This document shows, piece by piece, positions 4,525 to 8,352 of a stretch of DNA of 64,000 nucleotides. The notes beneath the pieces were generated by a model. It saw only the letters and a program-made list of their open reading frames with translations. It did no database searches and was not told the DNA's origin. Both the position numbers and the translations under genes were made by a program. The stretch lies in contig NZ_JAQUHV010000002.1 in assembly GCF_028681615.1 (NCBI RefSeq), forward strand, positions 124,001 to 188,000, given 5' to 3'. The stretch's first letter is position 1; each line of letters begins with the position of its first letter. Origin of the DNA: Sulfuricurvum sp. Its GTDB lineage: Bacteria > Campylobacterota > Campylobacteria > Campylobacterales > Sulfurimonadaceae.

Positions 4525-5715
4525 TTATGAGGACCACGTTACGCATATCTTCGTCCCTTTTTTCTCCTCCGATTCGATCGTGATATTCAGGTTGTACTCT
4601 CTGGCAATCATCGCGACGATGTTCAATCCGATCCCAAATCCTCCGACACTTTTATCGGCGCGTGTATAGCGCTCGAATACCCGTTCGATCATCGCATCGG
4701 GGATACCGATACCGTTATCTTCGACACATAGAACCCCATCACGAAGAGTAATCGATATAGTCCCTCCCATATGGTTATATTTGATTGCGTTCGAGAGGAG
4801 ATTATCGATGACACGGGTCGCTTTGGTATGATCGATCGTTAAAAATACGGATGGATCTACGGACAACTGCAATGCGATCTTTTTTTGCTCGATTCGGTGG
4901 CGAAAGTACTCTAACCGTTCGTGCAAAAGGTGGCTGAGGTCGAGTTGTACATCCTGCACGGAGAGGTCGTGATTGAGGATCAGATAGGTGAGATCGTCAT
5001 ACAGGGTCGAGATGGTGCGTGAAGCGATTTCAATTCGTTTGATCTTTTTTTGTGCCGAGGGGGGGAGATCGTTGACTTCCAGCGATTCGATGTTTGTGAG
5101 GATTGCACTGACGGGAGTATTGAGTTCGTGGGTGGTGTCTTTGATAAAATCATCGAGCAGGGCTATCGCCTCGTTCATCGGACGCAGAATCAAACGAGAG
5201 AGAAAATATCCCATACCGACGAGCATCAAAAATAAGAGCGTTCCGAATGTAAGGGTGATTTCAAGCGTTTGTTGACGCCACAGCCCGTCGTCTTGGGTTT
5301 CAAAAATCAGATAATACTCCCCCATCCCGTAGGGTGAGAGAGGAACGATCAGATAAATGTGTTTGCTTGAAAGGTAGATATTTTCTTTGAAATCGATTGG
5401 AGTACTATTATGCAGACGAGAAACGATGGGTTTTTGATCGTATCCGTAGAGTGCGGTCGTGTAGGCCAAATCTTTCGGAAAGGTTTTGAGATCGCGGTCG
5501 TGTTCGAGCCACGCTTTGAGTTTTGGGACATAACTTTCCGATTCGAGTTGCATCGCGAGGCGCTGGGATGAGAGCATCACGGCTTTGGCGTATTGAAAAT
5601 AGAGGACCCCGATCAGCGCCAGGATCAAAACAGACATGATCCCATACAGGATTAGAAAGCTTTTGAGGGTACGGTATTTAGCGAAATTGATACCCGAGGC
5701 GCTTGTGGCTGACAA
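4525..5715 (-). CDS. Sensor histidine kinase (OmpR-class partner)
   Basis: About 396 residues from a TTG at 5715 that is preceded by AAAGGA at 5-nt spacing. The nearest upstream ATG (5835) would force a 158-nt overlap with the regulator gene and add a non-conserved tail, so I prefer the TTG. Features are an N-terminal membrane helix (FLILYGIMSVLILALIGVLY), a periplasmic sensor region, a second helix, the phosphoacceptor His near residue 196 in KDTTHELNTPVSAI, an N box (LLSNAIKY), DNGIGIP and GGFGIGLN. It forms a two-component pair with the response regulator just upstream and overlaps that gene's end by 38 nt. The operon also holds an NhaC antiporter and an acetyltransferase. Confidence 0.88.
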   Translation of the reverse strand: MSATSASGINFAKYRTLKSFLILYGIMSVLILALIGVLYFQYAKAVMLSSQRLAMQLESESYVPKLKAWLEHDRDLKTFPKDLAYTTALYGYDQKPIVSRLHNSTPIDFKENIYLSSKHIYLIVPLSPYGMGEYYLIFETQDDGLWRQQTLEITLTFGTLLFLMLVGMGYFLSRLILRPMNEAIALLDDFIKDTTHELNTPVSAILTNIESLEVNDLPPSAQKKIKRIEIASRTISTLYDDLTYLILNHDLSVQDVQLDLSHLLHERLEYFRHRIEQKKIALQLSVDPSVFLTIDHTKATRVIDNLLSNAIKYNHMGGTISITLRDGVLCVEDNGIGIPDAMIERVFERYTRADKSVGGFGIGLNIVAMIAREYNLNITIESEEKKGTKICVTWSS

Positions 5716-6346
5716 TGGAATCCTTTCCGAGGAGTTTGCGGAGCGTTTTGATGTAGGTGCGTAAGCTTCCGTCACTAGGGGTTTCATCATAATCCCATAG
5801 ATGTTCCATGATGACTTCATGTGAGAGGAGCTCATTGCGGTGCTGGATAAAAAGTTTGAGAAGTTTATGCTCTTTCAGCTGGAGATTTTGCACTTGTCCC
5901 TCAACCGTGAGGACTTGATTCTCGATGTCATAGGTGATTCCCTCGGCGAGGGTAAGGGCATCGGTCGGATTATGGTAAAAGTTGCGTTTCAAGATCGTTT
6001 GAATCCGTAATAATAACTCTTTGAGGGCAAACGGTTTACGGATGTAATCGTCCCCACCGCTCTCGAAACCTTCTTCGACATCGCTCATGGCATTGCGGGA
6101 TGTGATAAAGATCGCCGGTGTGGTATTTCCCTCTTTCCGGTTTGCCTTAAGAAGGGAAAATCCGTCTCCGCCGGGAACGTTTACATCCAGGAGCAACAAG
6201 TCAAATTTTTGCTCATATAAAATGTCTTCGGCGGAAGAGGCATCGTAAACGCATACGACGTTAAATCCTTGCTCTTCGAGATATTCGCTGACACTCTCAG
6301 AAAGATTCGGGTCGTCTTCGAGTAAAAGGAGTTTTGCTTTGGTCAT
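5678..6346 (-). CDS. OmpR-family response regulator
   Basis: 222 residues. The receiver domain (about 4-118) has LLLEDDPNLSES, the phospho-acceptor Asp in LLLLDVNVPGGDGF, a conserved Thr/Ser switch region (PAIFITS) and the Lys in YIRKPF. The C-terminal winged-helix DNA-binding domain (about 130-222) has the LKEHKLLKLF and SLRTYIKTLRKLLG helices and ends in a short beta hairpin, HKRLGYQFR. Its start overlaps the NhaC stop by 4 nt and its end overlaps the kinase gene, so all three are read from one message. It may regulate this operon, but no operator could be identified. Confidence 0.92.
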   Translation of the reverse strand: MTKAKLLLLEDDPNLSESVSEYLEEQGFNVVCVYDASSAEDILYEQKFDLLLLDVNVPGGDGFSLLKANRKEGNTTPAIFITSRNAMSDVEEGFESGGDDYIRKPFALKELLLRIQTILKRNFYHNPTDALTLAEGITYDIENQVLTVEGQVQNLQLKEHKLLKLFIQHRNELLSHEVIMEHLWDYDETPSDGSLRTYIKTLRKLLGKDSIVSHKRLGYQFR

Positions 6347-7719
6347 GTTAGTGCGATTCCAAAAAGTACAAATAAAATAAAGGATATACCGGCTGCAATA
6401 AGGGCGTATGGGAGTTGAGTTCGGACATGTTCACCCACTTCGCATCCCGATGCCATCGAAGAGATAATCGTGGTATCGGAGATAGGGGAGCAATGATCGC
6501 CGAAAACCCCCCCTGAAATGACGGCACCCATACAGAGTGCAACGGGTGCATCGAGTCCGACGGCCAATGGAACGGCGATAGGGAGCATAATACTAAACGT
6601 TCCCCAGCTTGTACCGGTTGCAAATGCGATAATTGCCGCCAGAACGAAAATGGCTCCGCCTAAATAGGCCGAAGGCAAATAGCTTCCGATAAAAGAGGCC
6701 AGATATTTGCCTACTTCCATATCCGAACTGACTCCGCCGATGGCAAAAGCAAACAGTAAAATAGCGGCAATCGGAGCCATTGCTTTTGCCCCTTTCAGTG
6801 AGGCTGAAAAAAAATCATGGGACGTAAGAGCATTTTTAAATCGATAATATCCCCACATAAGTATCAGTGTAATAATGAGGGTATAAAAAATCGAGGTTGA
6901 ACCGGACCCTTTGAGAATATCTCCTCCTCCGGTGATGACCATGAACGCGATAACCCCTCCGATCATCCATACCATCGGCCATAAAAAGAGCCCAAAGTGA
7001 CCTCTCTCATCCTCGCATTCTATAGTATTCGGGGGAACAATGGCTGCGTTACGCATCGGTCCGATATCGATTTCAAACCAAACGGCAATAAAGGTAATGA
7101 TCAGGGCAACGAATGCGTAGAAATTAAAAGCTATCGACTGAACGAGCCATGTTGCGCTCTCACCTCCGATCAGTCCGGCCGTGATTTGTCCTCCGATGAG
7201 TCCCAGTAAAAGGGCTCCCCATCCATTTAGCGGGATGAGCGAACATACCGGTGCAGAGGTGGAGTCGCAGACAAATGCCAGTTTGGCACGGCTGATACCG
7301 TATCGGTCGCAAAAAGGGCGTCCGATCGCTCCGGCAACGAGAGAGGTTATGGATGACTCGATAAAAACGATAATACCGGCGATAAAGCTGGGCATGAGTG
7401 CACCCCGTTTGCTGTTCACCCAGGAACGTTTGACGCTCAGTTCATGGACCAGTCCGTCCACACCTCCGCTTCGCTCTATGAGTGCCATGACAGAGCCGAC
7501 CATGATGGCAAACGCGAGTGTTTTGAGCACCCACCCTTCACTGAGCAATCCACCAAAACGCTCAGCCGTTAAAACAAGTGCATCGATAGGGTGAAAGCCT
7601 GCAATGATAAACTCGCCCGCGAGAACGGCCATTACTAAAGCGATAAAAACGGAACGGCTGAAGAGGGCGAGAAGGATAGCAATGAGCGGCGGGAGTAACC
7701 CTAAAATTCCATATTCTAT
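6343..7719 (-). CDS. NhaC-family Na+/H+ antiporter, possible AUA start
   Basis: Multi-spanning membrane antiporter that exchanges cytoplasmic cations for protons (NhaC family). The first ATG in frame is at 7632 and gives 429 residues, but the frame stays open upstream and encodes EYGILGLLPPLIAILLALFS, which is the usual first helix of NhaC proteins. The upstream part contains no ATG, GTG or TTG. The best start is an ATA at 7719, six bases after AAGGA, giving 458 residues. The frame is closed just above it by the TAA that ends the acetyltransferase gene. Conserved NhaC stretches include FATGTSWGTFSIMLPIAVPL and GDHCSPISDTTIISS. It sits between a GNAT gene and a two-component pair in one operon. 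Confidence 0.85.
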   Translation of the reverse strand: MEYGILGLLPPLIAILLALFSRSVFIALVMAVLAGEFIIAGFHPIDALVLTAERFGGLLSEGWVLKTLAFAIMVGSVMALIERSGGVDGLVHELSVKRSWVNSKRGALMPSFIAGIIVFIESSITSLVAGAIGRPFCDRYGISRAKLAFVCDSTSAPVCSLIPLNGWGALLLGLIGGQITAGLIGGESATWLVQSIAFNFYAFVALIITFIAVWFEIDIGPMRNAAIVPPNTIECEDERGHFGLFLWPMVWMIGGVIAFMVITGGGDILKGSGSTSIFYTLIITLILMWGYYRFKNALTSHDFFSASLKGAKAMAPIAAILLFAFAIGGVSSDMEVGKYLASFIGSYLPSAYLGGAIFVLAAIIAFATGTSWGTFSIMLPIAVPLAVGLDAPVALCMGAVISGGVFGDHCSPISDTTIISSMASGCEVGEHVRTQLPYALIAAGISFILFVLFGIALT

Positions 7720-7728
7720 GGGAAATCC

Positions 7729-8352
7729 TTACAGTATCATCTGAAGACGCATAATACCGGGACGGTCGAACTGTTCTTTGTAGTATTCACTTCGTTTTTC
7801 ATCAATCACTTCGAAACCAAGTTTTTTGAAGATCATCTCTGTCTCTACCATGCCGATTTCGACGGAGGTTTGAACTTTACGGTACCCTTTTAAGCGCGCG
7901 GTAAGCATACTTTTACTGATCAGTTCTTTGAATACATCGATGGTTTTAAATTCCGGCTTGACCAACATAAAATCAAGTACAAAGGTTTTGTTGTCGACAT
8001 CCCCTTCGCACAGCAGATAGGCAGCGATACGTTCGTGGTAGGTTTCGTCAAATCCGATCTCTTCGAGTGCTTTTGAAAAGATTTCGTGGGTTGCGATACG
8101 GGGTTCATAGCCGCAAATCGTACCTACGGTAGTTGCACCGCTAACCGCAATAAAAAAGTTTGAGAAATGACAGTAACTTTTGGTTGTCGTGAGGGCTAAA
8201 CGTTTTAGATGTCCGAGGAGTAACTCATTATCCGAGGTATTAAAGACCAAATCAAACAATCCGATCTTCTTCCCGCCACGCGAACCCTCGATTAATGCTT
8301 GGGCAATAATGTCAATATCCGCCTCAGATGCTTTACGAACGGTAATTGTCAT
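7729..8352 (-). CDS. GNAT-family N-acetyltransferase
   Basis: 207 residues with the GNAT layout: an N-terminal VRKASEADIDIIAQAL strand-helix, a central strand (FVLDFMLVKPEF) leading into the acetyl-CoA binding helix, and a C-terminal QTSVEIGMVETEMIFKKLGF segment typical of the fold. It presumably acetylates a small molecule or protein amine, but the substrate cannot be told. First gene of an operon with NhaC, a response regulator and a kinase; a GAGG ribosome-binding site precedes the ATG. Confidence 0.75.
   Translation of the reverse strand: MTITVRKASEADIDIIAQALIEGSRGGKKIGLFDLVFNTSDNELLLGHLKRLALTTTKSYCHFSNFFIAVSGATTVGTICGYEPRIATHEIFSKALEEIGFDETYHERIAAYLLCEGDVDNKTFVLDFMLVKPEFKTIDVFKELISKSMLTARLKGYRKVQTSVEIGMVETEMIFKKLGFEVIDEKRSEYYKEQFDRPGIMRLQMIL

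Follow-up and report, generated by a model that had tools for sequence, protein, structure and literature searches.

Bacterial start codons other than ATG, GTG and TTG are thought to be very rare, and in a reconstruction of 36 genome groups, based on annotated starts, one of 61,358 ancestral AUG starts is reported to have changed to AUU (PMC5622118). Conserved non-AUG starts are already known from infC, pcnB, sigR and ccpN. In Escherichia coli, infC and pcnB are described as starting with AUU, an inefficient codon that limits a chromosomal gene. The GTC start of Streptomyces sigR is reported to be repressed by IF3, as seen with mutants; 32 of 34 species have GTC and two have GTT, and the conserved start sets the ratio of two products of an operon (PMC5472188). 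In Staphylococcus aureus reporters, the starts of ccpN, cvfC1 and citZ are described as lowering translation to about 10–30% of AUG; the AUA starts of ccpN and citZ gave around 10% in poor medium, and in rich medium the value for ccpN rose to as much as 30% (PMC13009471). IF3 is reported to exclude weaker third-base pairs in vitro (PMC10158994) and, in excess, to lower reinitiation in E. coli (PMC2268962).

Here we describe an antiporter gene from a 64,000-nt stretch of Sulfuricurvum sp. DNA (the window; positions 124,001 to 188,000 of contig NZ_JAQUHV010000002.1) which, judged by sequence, is of the infC/pcnB/sigR/ccpN kind, with an N-terminus that is conserved and has no ATG, GTG or TTG. It resembles ccpN (AUA), cvfC1 (AUU) and infC (AUA) of S. 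aureus in having a conserved non-canonical start, which in those genes is directed by a Shine-Dalgarno (SD) sequence and here probably is; those cases, as described, differ in coming from Firmicutes, in encoding regulatory or small proteins and in having an extended SD (PMC13009471), whereas our gene encodes a transporter, follows a GNAT gene and has a moderate SD, and AUA and AUC are used while AUU is absent. With sigR it shares a conserved non-canonical start in a two-product operon, but sigR is the first gene of its pair and uses another codon (PMC5472188). An effect of IF3 was shown there with mutants, whereas for the antiporter it is a prediction. Like E. coli infC and pcnB, it would be a chromosomal gene limited by an inefficient start, but their AUU is the one ATH codon never found at antiporter starts.

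Start codon of the antiporter gene in the window and its family

The gene lies on the minus strand at 6343–7719, in an assembly of 38 contigs with Sulfuricurvum as its nearest named relatives, and runs for 458 codons from ATA to a TGA at 6345–6343. Upstream on the same strand is a gene for a protein of the GNAT acetyltransferase fold (7729–8352), which starts with ATG and ends ATG ATA CTG TAA, the stop occupying 7731–7729. Downstream, also on the minus strand, are a response regulator gene (5678–6346), whose ATG overlaps the antiporter stop as ATGA, and a histidine kinase gene (4525–5835). The 4-base overlap recurs in 21 of 36 loci with a response regulator found downstream. Past the GNAT stop the same frame reads GGA TTT CCC ATA GAA TAT GGA ATT TTA GGG and stays open until the antiporter TGA. 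An earlier note on this DNA had observed that no ATG, GTG or TTG precedes the ATG at 7632–7630 in this frame and that AAGGA stands six bases before an ATA. Both observations were confirmed in the window: none of the three codons occurs between the GNAT stop and 7632, and the SD AAGGA (7730–7726) is followed by TTTCCC and then by ATA (7719–7717). The stop and the SD share bases, as TAAGGA (7731–7726), and the SD columns are conserved across an alignment of 48 ATA/ATC rows in which the gap is 9 nt. An out-of-frame ATG GAA TTT TAG (7701–7712, minus strand) starts within the third antiporter codon; this ATG is not conserved, many relatives having TAC or TTT for TAT.

The label NhaC, under which the protein had been noted, stands at the level of the superfamily: the protein scores 169 bits against Pfam PF03553 (curated cut-off 23), with the best stretch at residues 158–455. 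It does not stand as the NCBIfam NhaC equivalog, TIGR00931, against which it scores 58 bits with a cut-off of 370; it also falls below the cut-off of Tet(35), NF000013 (161 against 750 bits). No solved structure matched it by sequence at E 1. The fold model has a mean pLDDT of 86.6 and places helix 1 at residues 4–21 and helix 2 at residues 24–39.

To follow the start through its relatives we aligned the matches from near genomes (36 of 60 had one), from the order (125 of 398 genomes) and from the family (182 of 228 genomes), together with 80 loci from named genomes and 28 further family entries. From the family, a set of 152 rows and 23 new rows gave 175 distinct 5′ ends, which are fewer than all family matches. 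Left out were loci with the start off the contig (L031, L045 and L091, for example). Uncounted were family rows below 50% identity to the window, such as L193 (from G125; no GNAT match), which has an ATG four codons upstream of an ATC; three rows with no N-terminal alignment (L422, L423, L428); fragments in G023; a broken copy in G372; and a second copy in G012 (contig C125; ATA). G012 holds two copies of the locus (on C115 and C125), the second encoding the same protein as the window across 383 residues, and is perhaps a mixed bin. L353, whose frame closes after 48 aa, was left out of the second tree. Start codons were assigned by eye in 12 rows with a shifted alignment, in six GTG rows and in the 23 later family rows.

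The 175 family 5′ ends start with ATA in 122 cases, ATC in 30, ATG in 13, GTG in six and TTG in four; none has ATT. A tree of 146 rows contains a clade of 98 (SH-aLRT 100) with 65 ATA, 25 ATC, four ATG and four GTG starts, and the 48 rows outside it have ATG (34), TTG (7), GTG (6) and a single ATC, with ATG at the aligned position of ATA. The exceptional ATC row, L083, is titled Arcobacter, and its 200 nt around the start are identical to those of L419 in G572, which is assigned to the window's family. No in-frame canonical codon occurs in 139 of the 152 ATA/ATC rows from the upstream stop to the start or in the five codons after it. Seven have an in-frame TTG upstream (L010, L050, L057, L062, L066, L117, L141), and in six others TTG or GTG lies downstream at a distance of four or five codons (L020, L026, L029, L039, L047, L113); since their alignment agrees with that of the remaining rows, all 13 are included in the ATA/ATC count. 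The neighbours start normally: the GNAT ATG keeps its aligned position in 95 of 99 loci, the other four being cut or misplaced, and the response regulator ATG does so in all 18 rows that have the 4-base overlap at that point. The AUA that the earlier note had proposed as the start thus gains the support that it had sought from related genomes, with ATA or ATC here in 152 of 175 sequences, ATG in others and protein-type selection on the codons that follow, while a sequencing error at 7717–7719 is excluded by the 152 concordant sequences. On these alignments, the AUA/AUC start of the family is confirmed as more than chance.

Selection on codons 2–29 bears on the proposal that the true start is the ATG at 7632–7630 or another downstream codon, the conservation upstream being accidental. 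This ATG encodes residue 30 and is the first canonical codon in frame. Among 32 rows of the window's genus, differences in codons 2–29 were 0.206/0.055/0.544 by codon position, like those in the remaining gene. As a control, we compared window ORFs of at least 200 codons with one 262-kb contig of G011: 39 of 41 had a relative there with coding-type divergence, and 13 had at least eight homologous codons ahead of their first canonical start. Only the antiporter among these 13 showed clear coding-type substitutions in that segment (2/2/17 by codon position); the next most changed ORFs gave 11/4/2, 6/5/8, 3/4/6 and 7/1/2. In the model, a start at residue 30 would remove helix 1 and cut into helix 2, which spans residues 24–39. 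Among relatives, the position of the next canonical codon downstream varies, and outside the clade an ATG stands where the family has ATA. The ATG at 7632 is most likely the wrong start, and initiation at a downstream codon is exceedingly improbable.

Constraint on the start codon and its Shine-Dalgarno sequence

Over 90 ATA/ATC rows, all 22 internal isoleucine columns hold ATT (in 9–54 rows each) and the start column holds none. The start is therefore no ordinary ATH codon read by elongator isoleucine tRNA. On the tree, ten changes between ATA and ATC occur at the start, against 20–34 changes in the isoleucine columns; with the isoleucine-column T frequency of 0.33, the rough chance that 11 segments separated by ten such changes would all lack T is 0.011. 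Changes to G are likewise not free, since nine conserved Glu/Lys/Gln columns of the 98-row clade show 8–28 A/G third-base changes each and the start codon, in the same rows, shows three changes that involve G. The tree of the 152-row family set requires seven switches between canonical and non-canonical codons at the start.

This pattern bears on whether the codon is simply decaying, in a gene that drifts or is being lost and in which the start has become neutral. Some genomes appear to lack the gene, 46 of 228 in the family, many of them incomplete, having no match at E 1e-60, and in-frame internal stops occur in G372, G420, G571, G618, G698, G700 and G703; these stops are either sequencing errors or signs of decaying copies. 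Against decay stand the protein-type selection along the full length of the antiporter and the restriction of the third base to A or C across a deep family, and we consider this explanation very unlikely.

We scored an SD as well spaced if it had 4 nt or more and a spacing of 4–9, a rule chosen after seeing the data. By this post hoc rule, a well-spaced SD is present in the window and in 99 of 152 ATA/ATC starts, against none of 21 canonical starts behind a GNAT gene; in the remaining 53 ATA/ATC rows it is weak or missing. By codon, the counts under the same rule are 73/122 for ATA, 26/30 for ATC, 0/13 for ATG, 0/6 for GTG and 1/4 for TTG, the sole TTG row with a good SD being L359, which has no GNAT gene within 800 nt upstream. 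Among nearest relatives the contrast is clearest in two cases: L076 has ATG and no SD where L080 has ATA and AGGA, and L331 has ATG and no SD where L133 and L129 have ATA and AGGA. In the group of L370, AGGA is just 2–3 nt from the start because the ATG sits one codon upstream. A test on independent pairs was not significant, with four supported pairs and a median sign-test p of 0.25 (range 0.125–0.625), or 0.125 if spacings of 3–9 are allowed. The missing SD at canonical starts behind the GNAT gene suggests, from the sequences compared, selection for weak initiation. Outside the family, 11 of 27 antiporter relatives with an ATG start carry a TATAAT whose end lies 6–7 nt ahead of that codon, which would fit a leaderless mRNA (L168, L169, L176, L177, L178, L180, L181, L183, L184, L189, L191).

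We found no conserved RNA structure around the start: among rows whose gap is 9 nt, RNAalifold gave −2.0 for 24 of the same genus, where shuffling gave a mean of −1.3, and 0.0 for 25 others, where shuffling also gave 0.0. The window by itself is predicted to form a small hairpin that pairs the start codon (unpaired probability 0.05–0.24); this hairpin could matter too, though it is not conserved. Median folds around the start in the clade, uncontrolled for base composition, were −16.0 for the four ATG rows, −21.3 for the four GTG rows and about −12 for ATA and ATC rows. At gathering scores, Rfam matched nothing in the window. A special initiator tRNA was considered and rejected: G000 has three kinds of CAU tRNA, which by their sequences we take to be initiator-like, elongator-like and isoleucine-type, and no GAU, UAU or AAU anticodon was present among its tRNAs read. 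For infC, 29 of 30 genomes of the order (L196–L225) have TTG as their first canonical codon in frame, soon past an in-frame stop; many rows of the window's genus have ATT directly after this TTG, compatible with an AUU start.

The upstream GNAT-fold gene and possible translational coupling

The upstream product (gene at 7729–8352) is, by modelling, a GNAT fold. Its model has a pLDDT of 94.9 and a best PDB match to 1u6m (E 8.5e-10, TM 0.70/0.76), and its homolog L083 scores 33.1 bits against PF00583 (cut-off 20.7); the window protein itself had no Pfam match listed at E 10. GNAT acetyltransferases usually carry an acetyl-CoA motif, [QR]xxGx[GA]. Within residues 126–150, the segment searched, none of 95 GNAT relatives has it, and because this usual loop motif is missing the protein may be inactive as an acetyltransferase.

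A GNAT gene precedes the antiporter in 172 of the 175 family 5′ ends, the exceptions being L359, L408 and also L382, where the contig runs out at 49 nt. At E 1e-20 the GNAT profile matched 51 of 397 genomes of the phylum, all within the window's family. Five genomes (G003, G070, G085, G099, G331) keep the GNAT gene but gave no match to the antiporter at the thresholds applied, and in G085 and G099 no antiporter lies within 1500 nt after it.

This arrangement invites the explanation that ribosomes ending on the GNAT gene restart at AUA or AUC a few bases on, fixing the ratio of antiporter to GNAT protein; the codon would then be weak because coupled ribosomes are plentiful. In the 152-row family set, a GNAT gene is upstream in 150 rows and the gap is at most 16 nt in 143 of those 150, most often 9 nt (64 rows), 10 nt (28) or 2 nt (17). 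All 47 rows of the 146-row tree that lack a GNAT gene use ATG, GTG or TTG, whereas 91 of 99 with one have a non-canonical start, a comparison confounded by family membership. L359, the TTG row noted above, also fits termination–reinitiation. Against it, five loci of the window's genus (L006, L010, L011, L021, L025) have 76–127 nt between the genes and keep ATA or ATC with AAGG or AAGGA, and in L408, where no GNAT gene was found over 1500 nt upstream, ATA stands behind AAGGAG. Given L408, weakness does not strictly depend on the GNAT gene, and together with the five spaced loci it implies that coupling is probably not needed for the SD to direct the weak start. We hold reinitiation as the main determinant to be quite possible, while leaning somewhat against it. 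The intergenic stretches of L006 and L010 contain inverted repeats which, by eye, look like a small mobile repeat.

The earlier note had also pointed out that the GNAT stop and the antiporter share one frame, as they do in the window, so that read-through of the stop might yield a fusion protein; a frameshift could do the same. Among relatives this idea fared badly: the stop is in phase with the start in just 69 of the 150 with a measured gap, stop codon and spacing vary, and the genes stand 76–127 nt apart in the five loci above. Such a fusion is extremely improbable.

Proposed mechanism and significance

The reading that we favour, and in which the aligned sequences give us good confidence, is an antiporter that is initiated at AUA, placed there by its SD and kept weakly initiated by selection, so that little of it would be made per GNAT transcript. 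Ordinary fMet-tRNA(CAU) would initiate at the AUA at 7719, positioned by the AAGGA that overlaps the stop of the co-oriented GNAT gene, and the third-base mismatch would render initiation weak. Under such selection, AUA and AUC would interchange, AUG would seldom be gained, and where a canonical codon does arise behind the GNAT gene the well-spaced SD would be missing. Terminating GNAT ribosomes may often help to load the AUA/AUC site. By analogy with the systems described at the outset, the initiation rate and expression of the antiporter would be low and IF3 would discriminate against its start.

Weak initiation alone does not explain the absence of ATT. Opposite C34 of the CAU anticodon of the initiator, A and C at the third base can make proton-stabilised pairs (C.A+ and C.C+), U cannot do likewise, and G pairs normally. 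Acid-producing sulfur oxidisers carry this Na+/H+ antiporter family gene. The start codon might then act as a proton-sensitive valve, with initiation rising as the cell interior acidifies, which would explain the interchange of AUA and AUC, the absent AUU and the rare AUG. We consider such a valve highly unlikely; our literature search, judged by the opening parts of abstracts, found no paper on pH-dependent bacterial initiation.

Our literature searches found no paper on this AUA/AUC antiporter case. Within the literature searched, the new elements are that the gene encodes a transporter, that the start is kept to the depth of a family, that AUA and AUC replace each other while AUU is absent, and that there is an apparent trade-off with the SD. 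Gene finders restricted to canonical starts would drop 29 residues from the window transporter. In this family a single initiation site occurs naturally with AUA, AUC, AUG, GUG or UUG, a series that can be used to test the trade-off between codon, SD and coupling and what keeps AUU out. For the organisms that carry it, the weak AUA/AUC start probably serves to hold down production of the transporter.
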